Source: Rhodobacteraceae bacterium Water-Bin34
GTDB lineage: Bacteria > Pseudomonadota > Alphaproteobacteria > Rhodobacterales > Rhodobacteraceae
NCBI GenBank assembly: GCA_900197625.1
Contig: FZLS01000018.1
Location: forward strand, 1-44,575
Length of the DNA: 44,575 nucleotides
Direction: 5' to 3'
Shown: one piece after another, positions 33,748 to 41,501 of the stretch
Position numbering within the stretch: position 1 is the stretch's first letter
Layout: each line of letters begins with the position of its first letter
Notes under the pieces: model-generated
Databases searched by the model: none
Told to the model about the DNA's origin: nothing
Seen by the model: only the letters and a program-made list of their open reading frames with translations
Made by a program: the position numbers and the translations under genes

Positions 33748-35022
33748 ATGTTAAATATCAAAAGCCATCCTTTACGTGAGAGTTTATCTAAAGAATTGCA
33801 TGCGAGACCTTTCCCTGTATTGGACGCACCTAGCCAAGTTGTGTTCTTAGCACTTACATCCAATGAAAATGATGAAAAATACATTCAAAGTTTAGCCCAA
33901 CAATTAGGTGGAAGAGATTACGTGCTTGGTTCAGGTCATTATTATCAAGATTTGGGTAGCTATTCATTAAAATGGGAACGACACAGTGAATTTGTAACAT
34001 ATACAATTTTACTGGATGGCGAAGAAGAGACACCATTTTCTGATCTTGCATTAAATCATTTCCCTGAAATATGGTTAGACTCATTAACTAGCCAAGTTAT
34101 AACTGCTGTAAAATTGCGCGTTGTTGCACCTGCTTCATCTAAACAAGTAGAACATGATATATTGACAAATTTTCATACGGCTTTTCAGTCAGAAAGTTTA
34201 GCAATTTCATACGTCTTAGATAAAAATGCTATTGTTGCTAGTGATTTTAAAATGGATGAAAATGGGTACATTCGTTTTGGGGTTTTACCAATTGGGCAGT
34301 TAGGAAGACATAGACTTGGACGAATTGTACAAAGGTTGCTAGAAATTGAAACTTACCGTGCTATGTCCATGTTAACTTTACCAATAGCAAAAAAAGTTTT
34401 TACCCGATTAACTGAATTAGAAAAAGATTTGGCCACTACGGTCCAAGAAATCTCAGGACGAGCAGGAACTTATAAAGAAAATCTTGATACACTGATGACT
34501 ATTGCGTCAGAAATAGAATATTTAAATGCAGAAAATGCATTCCGTTTTGGTGCTGGTGATGCTTATTCAGCATTGGTCGACCAAAGGATATTTGTTTTGC
34601 GTGAAGAGAGATTCTTAGGCAGGCAAACTTTTTCTGAATTTATGATGAGGAGATTCAGCCCAACAGTTCGTACTTGTCAAGCAGCACAAAAACGCTTGCA
34701 GGATATTTCTGATCGTGCGGCAAGAGCATCAGATTTATTGAGCACAAGAGTAAATGTTCGAACCGCTGCGCAAAATAGGACTCTTTTGGAGCAAATGGAT
34801 AAACGATCTGAATTACAGCTAAGATTACAAGAAACAGTCGAAGGTTTGTCTGTTGTTGCTATAAGCTACTATTGTGTGAACTTATTTTCATATTTACTAT
34901 TTCCTTTAGCAGTATTCCAAGGATGGGAAAAGTATAACCTAACTGCATTTTTAGTTATACCTGTAGCTTTGTCCGTATTTTATATGGTGCGAAGAGTGAG
35001 GCGCCATTTAACTAAATCTTGA
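33748..35022 (+). CDS. DUF3422 family membrane-anchored protein
   Basis: A 424-residue protein of the DUF3422 family. The N-terminal HPLRESLSKELHARPFP motif is the family hallmark. A largely helical middle contains a coiled-coil-like stretch (about residues 210-365), and two membrane helices lie near the C-terminus (about residues 375-415), leaving most of the protein cytoplasmic. Function is unknown. The gene is plus-strand and its 3' end overlaps the 3' end of the convergent chrR gene by 11 bp. Confidence 0.88.
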   Translation: MLNIKSHPLRESLSKELHARPFPVLDAPSQVVFLALTSNENDEKYIQSLAQQLGGRDYVLGSGHYYQDLGSYSLKWERHSEFVTYTILLDGEEETPFSDLALNHFPEIWLDSLTSQVITAVKLRVVAPASSKQVEHDILTNFHTAFQSESLAISYVLDKNAIVASDFKMDENGYIRFGVLPIGQLGRHRLGRIVQRLLEIETYRAMSMLTLPIAKKVFTRLTELEKDLATTVQEISGRAGTYKENLDTLMTIASEIEYLNAENAFRFGAGDAYSALVDQRIFVLREERFLGRQTFSEFMMRRFSPTVRTCQAAQKRLQDISDRAARASDLLSTRVNVRTAAQNRTLLEQMDKRSELQLRLQETVEGLSVVAISYYCVNLFSYLLFPLAVFQGWEKYNLTAFLVIPVALSVFYMVRRVRRHLTKS

Positions 35023-35671
35023 AGAATGGCTGTAACAATCTTGGTATAATTGATTTAAATTTCAACGAGGCATCAGATGCCACAAGGCAAATGCAGGGCC
35101 CGTCATCACTAGCAGTTGGTTTATGATGTAGATTTTGATCTGCTATTTCAATATCACCACGTTTGAATTGGTCTTTTTCATCGTGAAATGAGCCCTTTAG
35201 AACCAAGGTCATCTCTAAACCGTTATGACTATGATTTGGCATAGCTGTACCTGCTGGTATATATAATAATCTAGCACTTGCTTTATTATCAGTTTTTAGA
35301 ATTGCTTGCTTTACGCCGCGACCAATACTCTTCCATTTGACGGTTTCTAGTTCATCTCCAGCATATTTCTTGAGAGGTTCTGGGAAAACACCTTCAACCA
35401 TTGTTGATGCAGAATATTTTTTTACTGGCTTTGTTTTATTTATTTTTAGCAGTACATCTTGAAAAGCGGTTGGGCTCATTTGCTCTTTATTGGTGTCTTC
35501 TAAGATTCCACCCCCAATTGCCTCAAAGCTAGCTAATCGAGCTCGAGCCTCATCGCTCATAGACATTTGTGTTGCCACAACAAGATTAAAGGCTTCTGGA
35601 AGTATTCCAGCTGCATAACTCATAAGAAGCTTTTCATTTAGATGATGTTTTATTGTCATATTTTTAGTCAT
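35012..35671 (-). CDS. chrR: ChrR-family cupin anti-sigma factor with degenerate zinc site
   Basis: Homologue of ChrR, which holds ECF sigma factor RpoE inactive until singlet oxygen or related stress. Of 219 residues, the N-terminal anti-sigma domain (about 5-90) aligns with Rhodobacter ChrR at a constant offset of 4. The zinc ligands known there as His6, His31, Cys35 and Cys38 are here His10, Gln35, Ser39 and Ala42, so three of four are lost. The C-terminal cupin keeps its ligands (H147, H149, E153, H183). The ATG overlaps the rpoE stop by 4 bp; the second Met (residue 5) matches the usual start. Stop codons overlap the convergent DUF3422 gene by 11 bp. Confidence 0.92.
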   Translation of the reverse strand: MTKNMTIKHHLNEKLLMSYAAGILPEAFNLVVATQMSMSDEARARLASFEAIGGGILEDTNKEQMSPTAFQDVLLKINKTKPVKKYSASTMVEGVFPEPLKKYAGDELETVKWKSIGRGVKQAILKTDNKASARLLYIPAGTAMPNHSHNGLEMTLVLKGSFHDEKDQFKRGDIEIADQNLHHKPTASDDGPCICLVASDASLKFKSIIPRLLQPFFKI

Positions 35672-36219
35672 TTCATATTATGTCTCAAGCGTTGTAAGGC
35701 TAATCTAATTCGAGATTTAATTGTGCCAAGGGGTAAGCCAGTCTCTTCGGCAATTTCTTGGTGCGACAAATCTGCATAAAATGCTCTTTCAACTATAGAA
35801 CGTTGTTTTAATGGTAAGTTTTTCACAGCTTCAGCTAATAATGTTGTTTCTTGTTGCATCATGATTACATCAGAAGCATCTGGTTCTGGGTCACTACCCC
35901 AGGGTAAGTCTTCTGGTTCGGGGCGATTATTGCGTCTAGCTAAATCTATTCGTTTATTTCTGGCAATTGTAAAAATCCAAGTTGATGCTGCTGCTCTAGT
36001 TGGATCAAATAAGTATGCTTTATGCCATACTGCGACCATAGTGTCTTGAGCACATTCTTCAGCAGTCGTAGCGTCAGCTCCACTTTTCATTAAAAAAGAT
36101 TTTATACGTGGTGCAAAATGAGAAAATAAATTTGAGAATGCCTCTTCATCTTTTTTTGTTGATATTAAAATAATACAATTTGCCCAGTGGTTTGTAGAAT
36201 TTATCTTATCTTTGCTCAT
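35668..36219 (-). CDS. rpoE: ECF sigma factor RpoE (ECF11, ChrR-controlled)
   Basis: Group 4 sigma factor that directs the singlet-oxygen/photo-oxidative stress response in alphaproteobacteria. Region 2 includes HFAPRIKSFLMKSGA and EECAQDTMVAVWHKAYLFDP; region 4 includes the DNA-binding SHQEIAEETGLPLGTIKSRIRLALQRLR. The ORF is open to 36315, but the ATG at 36219 gives 183 residues, matching the 181-residue Rhodobacter protein, and the longer start would coincide with the predicted transcript start. It is cotranscribed with chrR (4-bp overlap) and divergent from the putative regulon operon. Confidence 0.93.
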   Translation of the reverse strand: MSKDKINSTNHWANCIILISTKKDEEAFSNLFSHFAPRIKSFLMKSGADATTAEECAQDTMVAVWHKAYLFDPTRAAASTWIFTIARNKRIDLARRNNRPEPEDLPWGSDPEPDASDVIMMQQETTLLAEAVKNLPLKQRSIVERAFYADLSHQEIAEETGLPLGTIKSRIRLALQRLRHNMK

Positions 36220-36321
36220 CACTTTAGCCAGTATCCTGTCTGAGGTTACTGGTAGCTTAGAGGATCGTTCAAGTACTTCAAAGTCCTGATTGATATATTC
36301 TGATAAATCTAACATATATTA

Positions 36322-36349
36322 TATACGTAGTTAGATTTTATTTAGATCA
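36322..36349 (-). promoter_or_regulatory. putative sigma-E (ECF11) promoter of rpoE-chrR
   Basis: On the minus strand, TGATCT (36349-36344) and CGTATA (36327-36322) are separated by exactly 16 bases. The same arrangement occurs on the plus strand 18 bp away. It resembles, from memory, the ECF11 consensus (TGATC at -35, CGTA at -10) and implies that rpoE is autoregulated. The inferred start of transcription, near 36315, lies about 95 bases before the preferred rpoE ATG. Confidence 0.75.
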
Positions 36350-36366: not shown

Positions 36367-36394
36367 TGATCTATATCCAATAGAAGTGCGTAGT
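36367..36394 (+). promoter_or_regulatory. putative sigma-E (ECF11) promoter of the six-gene stress operon
   Basis: TGATCT at 36367-36372 and CGTAGT at 36389-36394 with a 16-base spacer, identical in layout to the divergent element before rpoE. The predicted transcript would start near 36401, about 20 bases before the ATG of the first operon gene. The pairing of two such elements in one 105-bp region makes coincidence unlikely. Confidence 0.75.
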
Positions 36395-36420: not shown

Positions 36421-37704
36421 ATGCCTTTTGAATTCCCCCACACACAATCAAAGAAAAATATTGCAGTTATAGGTGCTGGTATATCAGGTATGGGGGCAGC
36501 ACATTTATTGGCAAAATATCACAATGTCACACTTTATGAAGCTGAAAACCGAATTGGTGGGCATGCAAGGACTGTTATGGTGGGCTCAAACAATGATAAA
36601 CCTGTAGACACTGGTTTTATAGTTTTTAATTACGCTAACTATCCAAGAATGGCACAGTTATTTAAATCTCTGAATGTACCAGTTATAAAAAGTGATATGA
36701 GTTTTGGTGTTTCTGCTCAATCAGGTAATTTTGAGTATGCTCTAAGGACATTAAATTCGTTATATGGCCAACGAATGAATTTAATACGCCCTAAATATCA
36801 TAAAATGATATTGGATATTATAAAATTTAACAAAAATGCGGAAAATGCTCTTGAGGGTCCAGATATGACATTAGGGGATTTGCTTGCTAAAATTGGAACT
36901 GGCGACTGGTTTCGAGATTATTATATTTTACCATTTAGTGGCGCAATTTGGTCGGCTTCACTTGGGCAAATGCTAAATTTTCCGGCTGAAGCACTGATAC
37001 GATTTTTTAAAAATCATAATTTGTTGGCAAAATCTGGCCATCATCAGTGGTATACTGTCAAAGGGGGATCAATCGAGTACGTTAATCTTCTAGAGAAAGA
37101 CATGATAAAGCGTGGTGTAAAAATTTATACTGGGTCAACTGCAAAGGGCGTTAGAAGGACTCCGGCTGGAGTTGAAGTGCGAACTTTTGGAAATGAATGG
37201 CAAAAATTTGACAGTATTGTTATGGCTTGTCATTCTGATCAATCTTTGAAAATGCTCGAGAAACCATCTGATGATGAGTTAAAATTACTTTCAGCTATTA
37301 AATATCAAAAGAATCAAGCATTTTTGCATTCAGATAATGTTGTAATGCCAAAACGAAAACGCTGTTGGTCATCTTGGGTGTATGCCTCAGATGAAATTCA
37401 TAATACAAATCCTGTTGGGGTAAGTTACTGGATGAATCGTTTACAACCGATACCAGGTAACCAATATTTTTTTCAGTCTTTAAATCCTACCAGGGAAATT
37501 AAACAGGAATTAATCCATGATCAAAAAACATTTATGCATCCAGTTTTTGATCGAGAGGCACTTATTGCTCAAAAAAAATTCAGCACAATTCAAGGGAAAA
37601 ATAATACATGGTATTGTGGTGCTTGGCTTCGAAATGGATTCCATGAAGATGGATATTCTAGTGCTGTAGATATTCTTGAGAATATTGGGATGGTTTCTGC
37701 ATGA
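36421..37704 (+). CDS. FAD-dependent amine-oxidase-like protein, UfaD-like fatty acid desaturase
   Basis: A 427-residue flavoprotein of the NAD(P)-binding Rossmann/amine-oxidase type. The FAD motif GAGISGMG lies at residues 18-25, followed by YEAENRIGGHARTV. Homologues are found beside rpoE-chrR in many proteobacteria. In Rhodobacter/Rhodopseudomonas the corresponding protein was named UfaD, acting on membrane methylated fatty acids during furan fatty acid synthesis (from memory). First gene of a tight plus-strand operon; the next gene overlaps it by 4 bp. Transcription probably starts at the adjacent sigma-E element. Confidence 0.82.
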   Translation: MPFEFPHTQSKKNIAVIGAGISGMGAAHLLAKYHNVTLYEAENRIGGHARTVMVGSNNDKPVDTGFIVFNYANYPRMAQLFKSLNVPVIKSDMSFGVSAQSGNFEYALRTLNSLYGQRMNLIRPKYHKMILDIIKFNKNAENALEGPDMTLGDLLAKIGTGDWFRDYYILPFSGAIWSASLGQMLNFPAEALIRFFKNHNLLAKSGHHQWYTVKGGSIEYVNLLEKDMIKRGVKIYTGSTAKGVRRTPAGVEVRTFGNEWQKFDSIVMACHSDQSLKMLEKPSDDELKLLSAIKYQKNQAFLHSDNVVMPKRKRCWSSWVYASDEIHNTNPVGVSYWMNRLQPIPGNQYFFQSLNPTREIKQELIHDQKTFMHPVFDREALIAQKKFSTIQGKNNTWYCGAWLRNGFHEDGYSSAVDILENIGMVSA

Positions 37705-38462
37705 GTGCGGTTTTGGATCATATTCATGGTCAAACATTTCATGGAAGACATGGTAATATAAAAAATAATTTCTCTTATGGTGTAGATTATATTTTAACTG
37801 ACTTAAAAAAAACTACTGTACCATTTCTTTTTTCTAGAAATAAAAAAAATATAGTATCACTATTTGACAACGATTATGGAAATCTGTCTTCCTCTGAATG
37901 TGCTTTGGATTGGGTTCATAAGGTTTTATCTGAATTTGGTTTTAATAATCTAATCAAAGGTAAGATATTGCTATTAGCTCAACCTAGAATATTAAATCAT
38001 GTGTTTAATCCAGTAAGTTTTTGGATGATACATGATGAATATAACAATTTGAAGTTAGTCATAGCTGAAGTAAGCAATACATTTGGCGATAGACATAGCT
38101 ATTTATGTTACAAAGATGATTTGTCTGTAATAAGAAAAGACGATATCATAACGGCTAAAAAAATCTTTCATGTTTCGCCATTTCAGGACATTTCAGGAGA
38201 ATATAAATTTCGATTTGAATTGACAGAGAACTTTGTGAGTATTTGGATTGATTTTAGAGATAATGACAAAGGAGTATTAGCTACTTTCACTGGGTTTAGG
38301 CAGAAATTAACTAATAAATCTATTTTAAAAACAATTTTATTTAGGCCCTTTGGATCTTTTAGAGTTCTGACACTTATTCATTGGCAAGCTGTAAAGTTAA
38401 AATATAAAGGAGCGACATTTCGAAAGCGTCCAGTGCCAAACCCTAAGGATGTATCGCGATGA
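37701..38462 (+). CDS. DUF1365 family protein, UfaO-like
   Basis: A 253-residue DUF1365 protein. Features are the N-terminal GRHGNIKNNFSYGVDYILTDL, the central LLAQPRILNHVFNPVSFWMIHD block and the FRPFGSFRVLTLIHWQAVKL segment near the C-terminus. In furan fatty acid synthesis the DUF1365 protein UfaO is reported to be needed for furan-ring formation (from memory); the chemistry is not visible in sequence. It overlaps the upstream flavoprotein gene by 4 bp (ATGA) and the downstream chalcone-isomerase-like gene by 4 bp. Confidence 0.87.
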   Translation: MSAVLDHIHGQTFHGRHGNIKNNFSYGVDYILTDLKKTTVPFLFSRNKKNIVSLFDNDYGNLSSSECALDWVHKVLSEFGFNNLIKGKILLLAQPRILNHVFNPVSFWMIHDEYNNLKLVIAEVSNTFGDRHSYLCYKDDLSVIRKDDIITAKKIFHVSPFQDISGEYKFRFELTENFVSIWIDFRDNDKGVLATFTGFRQKLTNKSILKTILFRPFGSFRVLTLIHWQAVKLKYKGATFRKRPVPNPKDVSR

Positions 38463-38977
38463 AAAGATATATTTTTATATTATCTATTTTTCTTCTATTC
38501 TTCAGCGTAGATAGTTCATATTCGCAAAATTTGTCAGAAATACCAAAAGTATGGCACAAAAAAGGTGAAACACTAACTTCTTTTTTTGGTGTTTCTTTAT
38601 ATAATGGAACTTTGTTTGCTCCAGTAGATAAACCATTTAATATTGATGGAAATTATGCATTAAGCCTTTCATACTTGAGGAGCTTTAAGGCAAAAACTTT
38701 AATAAAATCTACAATCAAAGAAATTGATAGAATTCAAGGGATGACCATTGAAGAACAAAAAAATCTATCAAATTTATTATTTGATTGTTTTGTTAATGTA
38801 TCAAAAGGTGACAGAATAACTGCAATAGCAATCCATAAAAATGAGATTAGTTTTTTCTATAATGGAAAAAAACAATGTGATCTTGAGATGGCTAACATCA
38901 GAAGAAAATTTTTCAGTATTTGGCTTGGAAATAATACTCGTGATTTTGAAGGCTCACTTCGTTTGCAAGGTTTGTAA
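38459..38977 (+). CDS. secreted chalcone isomerase-like protein
   Basis: A 172-residue protein with an N-terminal signal peptide (about residues 1-22: charged start, hydrophobic core, SSYSQ end). The mature part ends with FSIWLGNNTRDFEGSLRLQGL, the hallmark of the chalcone isomerase-like (Chalcone_3) family, whose fold also binds fatty acids in plants. It may handle lipids in the periplasm, which would fit the neighbours. No catalytic residues are recognised. It overlaps DUF1365 by 4 bp, and the MFS gene follows after 2 bp. Confidence 0.8.
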   Translation: MKRYIFILSIFLLFFSVDSSYSQNLSEIPKVWHKKGETLTSFFGVSLYNGTLFAPVDKPFNIDGNYALSLSYLRSFKAKTLIKSTIKEIDRIQGMTIEEQKNLSNLLFDCFVNVSKGDRITAIAIHKNEISFFYNGKKQCDLEMANIRRKFFSIWLGNNTRDFEGSLRLQGL

Positions 38978-38979
38978 AT

Positions 38980-40200
38980 ATGAAGTTTGGCTTAATTAAA
39001 TATAGTTTTTTTTCGGGTATGTTAGCTTTCGCTGGTTTGCCTATATATTTGCACGCTCCAAAATACTTTTTAGATAATTATGAAATTTCCTTAACTGTAA
39101 TTGGATTTACCCTCCTAGGACTAAGATGTTTTGATTTTATTCAAGATCCTTTAATTGGCTGGGTATTAGATATCATGAAGTTGTGGCATAGATTATTAGT
39201 GTCAATAATGGGTGCGATAATTGCTTTTTCAATGATTTTTTTATTTGCAGTTCCTGCTATTGGAAACCCTTTGATTTGGTTTATTTTCTGTATGGTATTT
39301 TTATTTTCTAGTTTTTCAGTTTTATCAATATTATTTTATTCGCAAGGTGTTCATAAAGCAAAAATCTTAGGCAAAAAAGGTCATATTAGATTGGCAGTTT
39401 GGAGAGAGACTGGGGGTTTGGTTGGAGTTTGCTTGGCCGCTATTCTTCCTACATTATTTACAGGTTTTGGTTTACTGGAGAACATGACATGGTTTTCAAT
39501 ATTTTTTACATTAATTGTATTAATTTCTGTAATTTTAATGACAAAAGAATGGCATATAAGTTCATTACCAAACAGTAATTTAAAAGTTATTTTTCAAGAC
39601 CAGATATTAAGGCGTTTGCTAATTATTGCCTTGTTGAATGCAGCGCCACTTGCAGTCACAACAACCTTATTTTTATTTTTTGTAGAGTATTGTTTGGGGA
39701 CTGATTTTTCAGCTGGAATATTTCTTGTAATATTTTTTGTTTCAGCTGCATTATCCGTTCCTGTTTGGGGTAAATTAGGAAAATATTTTGCAGCAAAAAA
39801 CATATTAGTGTTCGCGATGATATCATCAATATTTATTTTTGCTTATGTCCTTACTTTAAATTCAGGTGAATATTTAGCATTTGCAATAATTTGTTCACTT
39901 TCTGGCTTTACTCTAGGCGCTGACATGACAATTTTACCTGCTGTTTTTTCGCGAAGGATAGCTTACCTTGGAATTAATGCTGGTCAAGCTTTTGGCATTT
40001 GGAGTTTTTGCGCTAAGTTTACATTAGCGTTTGCAGCAGCTTTTGTTTTGCCGGTTTTAGATTGGGTAGGTTTCTCAACTATTGAAACAAACTCGGCAAA
40101 AGCACTTTGGACGTTAACAATACTTTATGCAGGACTTCCTTGTGTTTTAAAGCTGGGAGCTGTGATTATGCTTTCGTCAAATTATTTGAAGGAGATTTAA
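38980..40200 (+). CDS. MFS permease of the sigma-E-linked operon (GPH-like)
   Basis: A 406-residue membrane protein with about 12 helices. RCFDFIQDPLIGWVLD in the first half resembles the cation-symporter (GPH/MelB-like) MFS branch. The substrate is unknown; its conserved neighbourhood suggests export or flipping of a lipid-related compound, which is inference. It starts 2 bp after the chalcone-isomerase-like gene and the DUF3833 gene starts directly at the next base after its stop. Confidence 0.83.
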   Translation: MKFGLIKYSFFSGMLAFAGLPIYLHAPKYFLDNYEISLTVIGFTLLGLRCFDFIQDPLIGWVLDIMKLWHRLLVSIMGAIIAFSMIFLFAVPAIGNPLIWFIFCMVFLFSSFSVLSILFYSQGVHKAKILGKKGHIRLAVWRETGGLVGVCLAAILPTLFTGFGLLENMTWFSIFFTLIVLISVILMTKEWHISSLPNSNLKVIFQDQILRRLLIIALLNAAPLAVTTTLFLFFVEYCLGTDFSAGIFLVIFFVSAALSVPVWGKLGKYFAAKNILVFAMISSIFIFAYVLTLNSGEYLAFAIICSLSGFTLGADMTILPAVFSRRIAYLGINAGQAFGIWSFCAKFTLAFAAAFVLPVLDWVGFSTIETNSAKALWTLTILYAGLPCVLKLGAVIMLSSNYLKEI

Positions 40201-40767
40201 ATGACTTTGTTTTTTTCAACCCTGCTGTTTGGAACACTTTTAGCATTATTTATAATTTGGTTTTGTAGCGTTAAATTTGGCTTTCTATCACAAAACCCTG
40301 ATCATTATGAGGATCAAGGAACTGAATTCGATATACGAGAAAGACTTAATGGGAATATGATCTGTGAGGGGGTAATTTATGGCCCATTTGGTAGAGTAAA
40401 TACAAGGTTTGTTGCTCATATGCATGCTAAATGGAAAGGTAATGTCGGTCACATGACAGAATCATTTGCTTACGATAATGGTGATACCTTAGAGCGTGTT
40501 TGGGATTTAAAAGTAAACAGCGATGATGGTTTAATTGAAGCAACGGCCCCTGATATTATTGGAACTGGTAGAGGTAAACAATCCGGTAGCGGAGTTAGAT
40601 TATGTTATAACATTAAACTTCCAAAATCTGCAGGGAGTTATGTTTTGAATACGGTTGATTGGTTATATCTCATGGAAAATGGGACTATAATAAATAGATC
40701 ACAATTTAGAAAATTTGGCCTTAAAGTTGGTGAATTAGTAGCTAACATGCGTAAAATTGATTTATGA
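40201..40767 (+). CDS. DUF3833 family protein
   Basis: A 188-residue protein with an N-terminal membrane helix (about residues 4-21) and a soluble domain of DUF3833 type, including RLNGNMICEGVIYGPFGRV, a VAHMHAKW stretch and ERVWDLKV. It is probably anchored in the membrane with a beta-rich lipocalin-like domain outside, as often predicted for this family. Function is unknown. It abuts the MFS gene with zero gap, and the SDR gene overlaps it by 4 bp. Confidence 0.87.
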   Translation: MTLFFSTLLFGTLLALFIIWFCSVKFGFLSQNPDHYEDQGTEFDIRERLNGNMICEGVIYGPFGRVNTRFVAHMHAKWKGNVGHMTESFAYDNGDTLERVWDLKVNSDDGLIEATAPDIIGTGRGKQSGSGVRLCYNIKLPKSAGSYVLNTVDWLYLMENGTIINRSQFRKFGLKVGELVANMRKIDL

Positions 40768-41501
40768 AATTGAAAGGAAAAAAATACTGGATAATAGGGG
40801 CTTCTGAAGGTCTGGGGCGTGAGCTTTCAATACAGCTCTCTAATTTAGGCGTTAAGCTTATTATAAGTGCAAGAAATGAAACAAGATTAAATGAATTATC
40901 ATCTTTGACGAAAGCCAAAGTATTAGCTCTTGATGTTCTAAACATTGACGCAATTAATCAAGCTTCTAAATCAGTCGGAATAATTGATGGGATTATTTAT
41001 GTTGCTGGGGATTATACTCCATTAAATTCTACAACATGGAATGTAGAGGAAGTTGATAAGATGATTGCTGTTAATTTTACAGGTGCAGCAAAAGTCTTAG
41101 GATTTATAGTGCCAAAATTTTTGAAACAAAATAATGGGCATATAGTTATGATCGGTAGTCTCTCTGGTTTTCGCGGATTGCCAAATGCAATCGGATATGG
41201 GGCATCTAAAGCAGCGATGATGCACTTGGCGGAAAATATAAAAGCTGATTTATATAAAACACCTATAAAGATTCAACTTATAAACCCTGGCTTTATAAAA
41301 ACTCGCTTAACAGAAAAAAATAATTTTAAAATGCCATTTATAATGTCAGTAGAAGATGCAGCTAAGCGTGTAATATTCGCAATGAATAGTAATCGATTTC
41401 AAACAAATTTTCCGTTAATATTTTCTCTATTATTCAGGGCTTCAAATTTACTACCTGCTTTTATTTATTTTTGGTTATTTTCATCAAACATGAAAAAATA
41501 A
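40764..41501 (+). CDS. short-chain dehydrogenase/reductase of the sigma-E-linked operon
   Basis: A 245-residue SDR oxidoreductase. The cofactor motif GASEGLG lies at residues 12-18, and the catalytic YGASK at 145-149 with a preceding IGSLSG serine near 133. The final 25 residues are hydrophobic and may associate with the membrane. Substrate unknown; a lipid-derived carbonyl would fit the operon. Overlaps DUF3833 by 4 bp and ends the operon. No clear terminator was found in the 106 bp before fdhA. Confidence 0.9.
   Translation: MKLKGKKYWIIGASEGLGRELSIQLSNLGVKLIISARNETRLNELSSLTKAKVLALDVLNIDAINQASKSVGIIDGIIYVAGDYTPLNSTTWNVEEVDKMIAVNFTGAAKVLGFIVPKFLKQNNGHIVMIGSLSGFRGLPNAIGYGASKAAMMHLAENIKADLYKTPIKIQLINPGFIKTRLTEKNNFKMPFIMSVEDAAKRVIFAMNSNRFQTNFPLIFSLLFRASNLLPAFIYFWLFSSNMKK

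Follow-up and report, generated by a model that had tools for sequence, protein, structure and literature searches.

Recurrent loss of zinc ligands from the anti-sigma domain of ChrR in the Rhodobacteraceae

Loss of zinc ligands from the anti-sigma factor ChrR is real, clade-wide and recurrent among the Rhodobacteraceae. The case from which the analysis sets out is the ChrR encoded in the window, a stretch of 44,575 nucleotides from Rhodobacteraceae bacterium Water-Bin34 (contig FZLS01000018.1), in which three of the four residues that hold zinc in the Rhodobacter sphaeroides protein are replaced. In R. sphaeroides, zinc in the anti-sigma domain is required for sigma inhibition (PMC6852236), and for this reason a ChrR deprived of three ligands, with nothing to make up for them, would be expected to fail. 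From the sequence comparisons laid out below it seems probable that the ChrR-family anti-sigma domain found here no longer binds zinc and yet folds and holds RpoE.

The window ChrR and its zinc ligands

Judged by its profile matches, the window protein is plainly a ChrR-family anti-sigma factor. It scores 213.5 bits against the TIGR02451 profile (cut-off 124.5), covering that profile from 1 to 216 of 216, and it matches Cupin_7 with 58.9 bits. A phmmer comparison aligns its residues 5-208 with R. sphaeroides ChrR (PDB 2z2s_B) at 201 bits, and the best Foldseek matches of its AF2 model are 2q1z and 2z2s, as the sequence already predicts. The score with the equivalog model NF051881 (StressantisigmaChrR) is 157.2 bits, under the threshold of 300, and a search of the same genome at E <= 0.001 found no further copies of the protein. 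The two domains, the family model, the place behind rpoE and the cupin ligands are all the same as in R. sphaeroides ChrR (2Q1Z, 2Z2S; an ECF11 system with an HHCC ZAS). What sets the window protein apart from its R. sphaeroides counterpart is the set of substitutions H31Q, C35S and C38A.

The ligands of the R. sphaeroides anti-sigma domain are H6, H31, C35 and C38, and those of the cupin metal are H141, H143, E147 and H177 (PMC6852236). In the region of the anti-sigma ligands the phmmer alignment is ungapped, with residue 5 of the query at residue 1 of ChrR (2z2s), giving a constant offset of 4. The choice of start codon alone may account for this offset: taking Met5 as an alternative start of chrR restores the Rhodobacter numbering, and in one relative (L004) an in-frame TGA lies directly before the codon that matches Met5. 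The gene and its metal-site residues are as follows.

35012-35671, minus strand: chrR, 219 amino acids, with the anti-sigma domain N-terminal and the cupin C-terminal
35642-35644, minus strand: His10, at ChrR His6 by the alignment, a zinc ligand that is kept
35567-35569, minus strand: Gln35, at ChrR His31; codon CAA; common to the window and its three closest relatives
35555-35557, minus strand: Ser39, at ChrR Cys35; codon AGC; immediately precedes helix 3 in the model
35546-35548, minus strand: Ala42, at ChrR Cys38; codon GCT
35123-35233, minus strand: span of the cupin ligands H147, H149, E153 and H183, all kept by the alignment

Read on the minus strand, 35546-35569 runs CAA ATG TCT ATG AGC GAT GAG GCT, that is, Q35 M S M S39 D E A42. 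The preliminary description of this DNA had reported three of the four ligands as lost, with His10 kept, at an offset of 4, and the alignment and the codons CAA, AGC and GCT agree with it. It had also described the cupin metal site as retained, and H147, H149, E153 and H183 are indeed all present. It had further stated that the substitutions are no sequencing frameshift. The same three residues, Q-S-A, recur in three other genomes, and because of this recurrence sequencing error or chance is ruled out as their cause.

The anti-sigma domain of the window protein contains no cysteine at all, and its only histidines are the adjacent pair H9 and H10. The ZAS motif is defined as H/C-X24/25-H-X3-C-X2-C (PMC6432622). 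The window ChrR departs from it after H10, having Q35, S39 and A42 at the following positions. A Zn(Cys)2(His)2 site cannot form in this protein because three of its four ligands are replaced, and zinc in the domain appears unlikely.

Ligand loss in the genus and the family

The proteins closest to the window ChrR share its ligand state, H-Q-S-A, at 85% identity (L002, the same as L060), 76% (L003) and 72% (L004, the same as L061). L060 is alpha proteobacterium HTCC2255, the nearest named relative, which belongs to the NAC11-7 lineage of surface-ocean Rhodobacteraceae (PMC10203303), and the window organism would seem to belong to that lineage too. The preliminary description had named a lone variant among canonical relatives as the outcome that would speak against it; the three closest relatives instead share H-Q-S-A. 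Both a lone variant and a sequencing error are ruled out, this state being common to HTCC2255 and to two further genomes (G022 and G007).

The genus was sampled with 33 genomes, 23 of which carry chrR, in 22 cases with readable ligand positions. Four of these 22 are H-Q-S-A, 11 show some other loss of one or both cysteines, and 7 have HHCC. In most proteins of Amylibacter/Neptunicoccus type H31 is still present and H6 is replaced by Leu, Val, Ile or Thr, which is the opposite of the window. On this comparison the loss of the zinc site is wider than the preliminary description supposed, and related lineages have dropped different histidines.

For the family, 214 distinct Rhodobacteraceae ChrRs were compared, with identical proteins collapsed and the fragment L026, which has no anti-sigma domain, excluded throughout. 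All four ligands are present in 183, both cysteines are missing from 28, and C38 alone is missing from 3; loss of Cys35 alone was found in none of the 214. Histidine loss was likewise absent where both cysteines are kept (0 of 183). Among the 31 cysteine-lost ChrRs, H6 is gone in 14 and H31 in 4, the latter being the H-Q-S-A clade, so that the loss of the cysteines can be followed by that of either histidine. The cupin ligands HHEH are intact in all 183 canonical proteins and in 28 of the 31 cysteine-lost ones. Members without both cysteines include the ChrRs of HTCC2255, Amylibacter cionae, Neptunicoccus sediminis, Roseicyclus marinus, Roseibacterium persicicum and Meridianimarinicoccus roseus.

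The family sample is tilted toward proteins resembling that of the window, and the frequency of cysteine loss in it is therefore biased. Moreover, 59 rows came from a scan with two patterns that were derived from an alignment containing cysteine-less members; one pattern admitted Ser or Cys at the Cys35 position and Ala, Cys or Ser at the Cys38 position, and the named loci may over-represent loss. When these 59 rows are set aside (n = 155), there remain 131 HHCC proteins, 21 with both cysteines lost and 3 with C38 alone lost. Histidine loss is then found in 0 of 131 canonical proteins, and the cysteine-lost set has lost H6 in 12 of 24 cases and H31 in 4 of 24. The all-or-none ligand pattern is thus independent of the pattern-based scan.

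Cysteines elsewhere in the domain vary among the 31 cysteine-lost ChrRs: 17 have none anywhere in it, and 14 have one to six, this count including the three ChrRs that keep Cys35. Those three, L009, L233 and L244, are the only single-Cys ChrRs in the family, and each has lost Cys38 and H6 while keeping Cys35, a pattern that suggests an order of loss in which C38 goes before C35. Outside the family, L273 reads AFNC, with its cysteine only at the Cys38 position, the reverse of the family order. At L016 (G010), L017 (G011) and L025 (G029) the cupin ligands are also broken (HRES, HLEH and FQQE, respectively), with four to six cysteines in the anti-sigma domain and rpoE still adjacent; L014 (G019) has six cysteines in the domain and an intact cupin site.

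Beyond the Rhodobacteraceae, 17 distinct proteins that join an anti-sigma domain to a cupin lack both cysteines; all 17 have HHEH and 8 adjoin an RpoE match, in a set that was hand-picked toward small genomes and weaker matches and that yields no frequency. ChrR-like genes of this architecture at L267-L269, L281, L284, L288, L289, L304 and L305, mostly from other alphaproteobacterial families, have lost the zinc motif and kept HHEH, with no RpoE match within the stretch taken.

The number of losses was estimated from trees. A quick tree of ChrR plus RpoE (218 rows, with the ligand columns removed) requires a minimum of 5 changes by parsimony, one of them the C38-only loss in L244. In a careful tree of 66 rows, from which L025 was left out, the H-Q-S-A clade is supported at 100/100, a Roseicyclus-Yoonia group of 11 rows at 100/99, Meridianimarinicoccus with G180 and G396 at 98/97, and G221 with the canonical L035 at 100/99. 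The same tree unites H-Q-S-A, the Amylibacter-type rows, L012/L013 and outgroup rows that join on long branches at 98/96. H-Q-S-A and the Amylibacter group are separated there, with weak support, by the canonical L012/L013 and the long outgroup branches. Another tree, which omitted L022, L023, L187, L024 and most canonical rows, puts the two groups on one side of a branch with support of 75/37, and the trees thus differ on whether these groups had one shared loss or two. For the loss of both cysteines, about three events are firm and the best tree has four or five changes. The firm ones are those of the genus group, of the Roseicyclus/Yoonia/Meridianimarinicoccus rows (one or two events) and of G221, whose sister L035 is canonical (support 99-100). 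The preliminary description had raised the possibility that cysteine-poor ChrRs form a clade; the four H-Q-S-A rows do so, and at least two further lineages lack the ligand cysteines.

Indirect signs of retained function

The ratio dN/dS in the anti-sigma domain, a rough measure here with dS > 1 in many pairs, is 0.03-0.23 in 14 of 18 cysteine-lost pairs, the other 4 being saturated, and has a median of 0.25 in the canonical control (values from 55 of 61 pairs). The gap in identity between the anti-sigma domain and the cupin is 0.04-0.14 in five H-Q-S-A pairs, compared with a mean of 0.13 (sd 0.07) in 61 canonical pairs. The cysteine-lost domain is under purifying selection and is decaying no faster than the canonical one.

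The surroundings of chrR in the window are as follows.

35668-36315, minus strand: rpoE, ECF sigma factor (Sigma70_r2, Sigma70_r4_2), with an ATGA overlap with chrR
36324-36349, minus strand: ECF11-type promoter motif TGATCT-N16-CGTA, before rpoE-chrR, from the motif search
36367-36392, plus strand: ECF11-type promoter motif TGATCT-N16-CGTA, before the divergent operon, from the motif search
36421-41501, plus strand: divergent genes by profile matches, for an FAD oxidoreductase, a DUF1365 protein, a chalcone-isomerase-like protein, an MFS protein, a DUF3833 protein and a short-chain dehydrogenase

The RpoE of the window would fall in the ECF11 group. At all 31 cysteine-lost loci rpoE lies immediately upstream of chrR. 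Of the 23 chrR-bearing genomes of the genus, 22 also have an rpoE match (E <= 1e-25), the 23rd having its chrR cut at a contig edge, and at the same threshold rpoE is absent from all 10 genomes without chrR. The rpoE reading frame of the window begins about 9 bases past the -10 element, and in most relatives the alignment starts no earlier than residue 22-48. Translation may in truth begin at Met33 (36219), preceded by a leader; the extension at 36219-36315 is still alignable in the H-Q-S-A genomes.

The promoter motif TGATCY-N16-CGTA has been described for Shewanella rpoE2-chrR and likened to that of R. sphaeroides (PMC4336711). It has 2 matches in the window where 0.13 are expected, both of them between rpoE and the FAD oxidoreductase gene, and two matches were reached in 2 of 100 shuffles. 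When 17 loci were compared (two of them duplicates), TGATC...GTA preceded both transcripts in 16, including all four H-Q-S-A genomes; at L130 no match was found within the 330 bases examined. The divergent genes stand where R. sphaeroides has RSP_1091-1087, and are matched with these by position and promoter, not by sequence. In R. sphaeroides, RSP_1090 is needed for the breakdown of ChrR under singlet oxygen (PMC3818230). The divergent genes of the window include the chalcone-isomerase-like gene at 38459-38977 and the DUF3833 gene at 40201-40767.

What may take the place of zinc

The AF2 model of the window protein has a mean pLDDT of 82, with helix 2 at residues 26-38 and helix 3 at 40-52. 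Over residues 11-50 the pLDDT of successive blocks is 88, 92, 92 and 85, compared with 94, 96, 94 and 89 for a canonical relative, L100 (offset 3), which was modelled on the same sequences as a control. Helix 3 of the L100 model likewise begins right after the Cys35 position, and helix 2 stops two residues earlier. In the RsiW crystal structure the counterpart of this residue, Cys34, sits in the loop ahead of helix 3, and Cys37 is within the helix (PMC5358783). The residue at the Cys35 position is Ser in 31, Asn in 8 and Asp in 2 of the 46 distinct proteins that lack Cys there; for the family only, the count is 26 Ser and 2 Asn out of 28. Ser, Asn and Asp are good helix N-cap residues, and, judged by the secondary structure of the model, Ser39 would cap the start of helix 3.

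A column scan of ChrR plus RpoE drew attention to one more residue.

35603-35605, minus strand: Ile23, at ChrR Thr19

Position 23 is mostly polar in canonical ChrRs. Counted over the full set, an aliphatic residue stands there in 28 of 31 cysteine-lost proteins versus 13 of 183 canonical ones; this count includes the 59 biased rows of the scan, one pattern of which allowed only I, Q or V at the position. With these rows left out, the residue is aliphatic in 21 of 24 cysteine-lost proteins versus 11 of 131 with both cysteines. Clade-drawing controls on all rows gave 0 of 400 with five groups, 7 of 400 with three and 56 of 400 with two; relaxing the threshold on the full set brings up RpoE residue 8 as well. 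With the scan rows removed and three groups required, position 23 is the sole column, and null draws yield a column of any kind in 4 of 400 cases. Under the strict five-group rule with the same rows removed, position 23 falls out (group C has 1 of 2), and when two groups suffice a shift is seen at RpoE residue 131 as well. L244, which has Asn at 23, is outside the groups used. A correlated-evolution test gave p 0.009 on all rows, including the biased ones and after the position had been picked, and independent-pairs tests, with few pairs, were not significant. The canonical L012/L013, of the same genus, and L254 already have Ile or Val at position 23, which fits a permissive change, and L034 and L264 are still polar there, which fits a later one. 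These alignments suggest that cysteine loss goes with an aliphatic shift at position 23. By secondary structure this position is in the helix 1-helix 2 loop, probably at the end of the bundle far from the zinc site, and compensation through the packing of Ile23 would be a guess.

The best way to bring these observations together is to suppose that the Zn-Cys35/Cys38 knuckle, which holds the start of helix 3 in R. sphaeroides, has given way here to a cap at Ser39. Further packing may come from the aliphatic residue 23, in the loop that joins helices 1 and 2, and the three-helix bundle would be kept together by protein contacts, as in RseA. Stress sensing would be left to the intact cupin metal site and to the triggered proteolysis known from R. 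sphaeroides. The hold on RpoE is argued from the sequences, the release from earlier knowledge of ChrR. Thiolate oxidation is impossible in the window domain because it has no cysteine, and this would put sensing elsewhere; the absence of any thiolate is true of the window protein and of the 17 cysteine-free ChrRs among the 31, not of all of them. A broader account can be offered tentatively, as one that may well prove wrong. The family would repeatedly have turned ChrR metal-free, losing C38, then C35 and then either histidine, with a Ser or Asn cap and often an aliphatic residue at position 19 (ChrR numbering). The singlet-oxygen response would have been kept, and the sensor would be the cupin with its proteolytic relay and not the Zn(Cys)2(His)2 site.

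Alternative explanations

The preliminary description had allowed either that the protein inhibits RpoE without zinc or that its anti-sigma function is weakened and rpoE more constitutive. The second branch, taken to its end, would have a weak or dead anti-sigma domain, a largely constitutive RpoE and a cupin kept for some other reason. It draws on the need for zinc in the R. sphaeroides domain (PMC6852236), and the broken cupin sites of the Amylibacter-group L016, L017 and L025 argue that decay can occur nearby. Such an outcome is nevertheless unlikely, and this branch is disfavoured, since the cysteine-lost domain is conserved as strongly as the canonical one, the genus retains or drops chrR and rpoE as a pair, the promoter motifs persist, the cupin is intact in nearly all cysteine-lost members, and the state recurs in several lineages. 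The branch of inhibition without zinc is favoured by the conserved domain, the full support of the H-Q-S-A clade and the further lineages. Zinc might still be held by other residues, for example H9/H10 together with carboxylates, or be shared with the cupin. H9, H10 and the conserved D40/E41 are present, and Chabert et al. speculated that oxidation might be followed by a mixed coordination that draws in cupin ligands (PMC6432622). However, the window domain offers no cysteine and no histidine beyond one adjacent pair, canonical proteins have H9 and D40 about as often, and sister lineages lost H6 and kept H31, as expected if neither is needed, so that binding by other residues is the least probable of the readings considered here.

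Thiolate loss could also be an adaptation, providing an oxidation-proof switch in phototrophs under chronic singlet oxygen. Photo_RC (pufL/M) is above the cut-off in 165 of 394 family genomes and in 11 of the 20 genomes with deviant or neighbouring chrR loci. In the family outside the genus it occurs in 9 of 9 cysteine-lost versus 78 of 124 canonical genomes (Fisher p 0.027, kinship ignored), these 133 genomes having been drawn from the more similar matches and not as a random sample of the 394 searched. When kinship is allowed for, however, independent pairs are not significant and the correlated-evolution test gives p 0.17, and within the window's genus Photo_RC was found in 1 of 15 cysteine-lost genomes (G005). 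The link to phototrophy was dropped, as the kinship correction removes it and it fails in the genus, and an oxidation-proof switch is highly improbable as the cause of the loss. Since cysteine-less ChrRs occur in genomes with and without reaction-centre genes, they are not simply a sign of a life free of singlet oxygen.

A rhodopsin gene (PF01036, above the cut-off) is present among the 33 genus genomes in the four H-Q-S-A members (G000, G030, G022 and G007) and in G002. Neither chrR nor rpoE was found in G002, and G029 has a rhodopsin match only under the cut-off.

Relation to known systems and significance

RseA of E. coli and RskA of M. tuberculosis are zinc-free class I anti-sigma domains, and their likeness to the window protein would lie in a bundle held by protein contacts. 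RseA is membrane-bound and has no cupin. It is also without significant sequence similarity to ChrR (PMC6852236). Zinc-free anti-sigma domains are known from RseA, RskA and zinc-less RsiW (PMC7406223, PMC5358783). The last of these, from B. subtilis, combines a ZAS-type fold with zinc-independent binding of its sigma factor and is thus a precedent for the window protein (PMC5358783). Unlike the window protein, RsiW retains a CHCC motif, and it is controlled by membrane proteolysis. Class I anti-sigma domains that lack zinc are common, at about 44%, and the groups AS19-1, AS27 and AS33 mix zinc and non-zinc members (PMC7406223), the motif coming and going there as it does in the ChrR family. 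In the parts of that text that were available, no description of AS11, the ChrR group, as mixed was found. Searches of the open-access literature brought up no title or abstract opening that reports a cysteine-less ChrR in ECF11 systems, and an earlier mention in the key papers is possible. Zinc-lacking anti-sigma domains are known in general, and the instance in ChrR/ECF11 would be the new part.

The role of the zinc site in the response to stress has been under debate. Donohue (2019) described its precise role in ChrR as unknown (PMC6852236), and Chabert et al. (2019) described it as debated and reported that the zinc-bound thiolates of a model peptide react fast with singlet oxygen (PMC6432622). 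Rajasekar et al. (2016) stated that ChrR senses singlet oxygen through its cupin and not through the HHCC site (PMC4960319), and a ChrR without its cupin still inhibits and fails to respond (PMC6852236).

Natural ChrRs that lack the ligand thiolates make the question of sensor or scaffold testable, whereas engineered mutants may simply unfold. Three named strains with such ChrRs, Roseicyclus marinus, Roseibacterium persicicum and Meridianimarinicoccus roseus, carry photosynthetic reaction-centre genes. For genome annotation, the zinc motif is unfit for recognizing a ChrR or for excluding one. If the reading favoured here is true, the known view of the cupin as the sensor would be confirmed by a new route.
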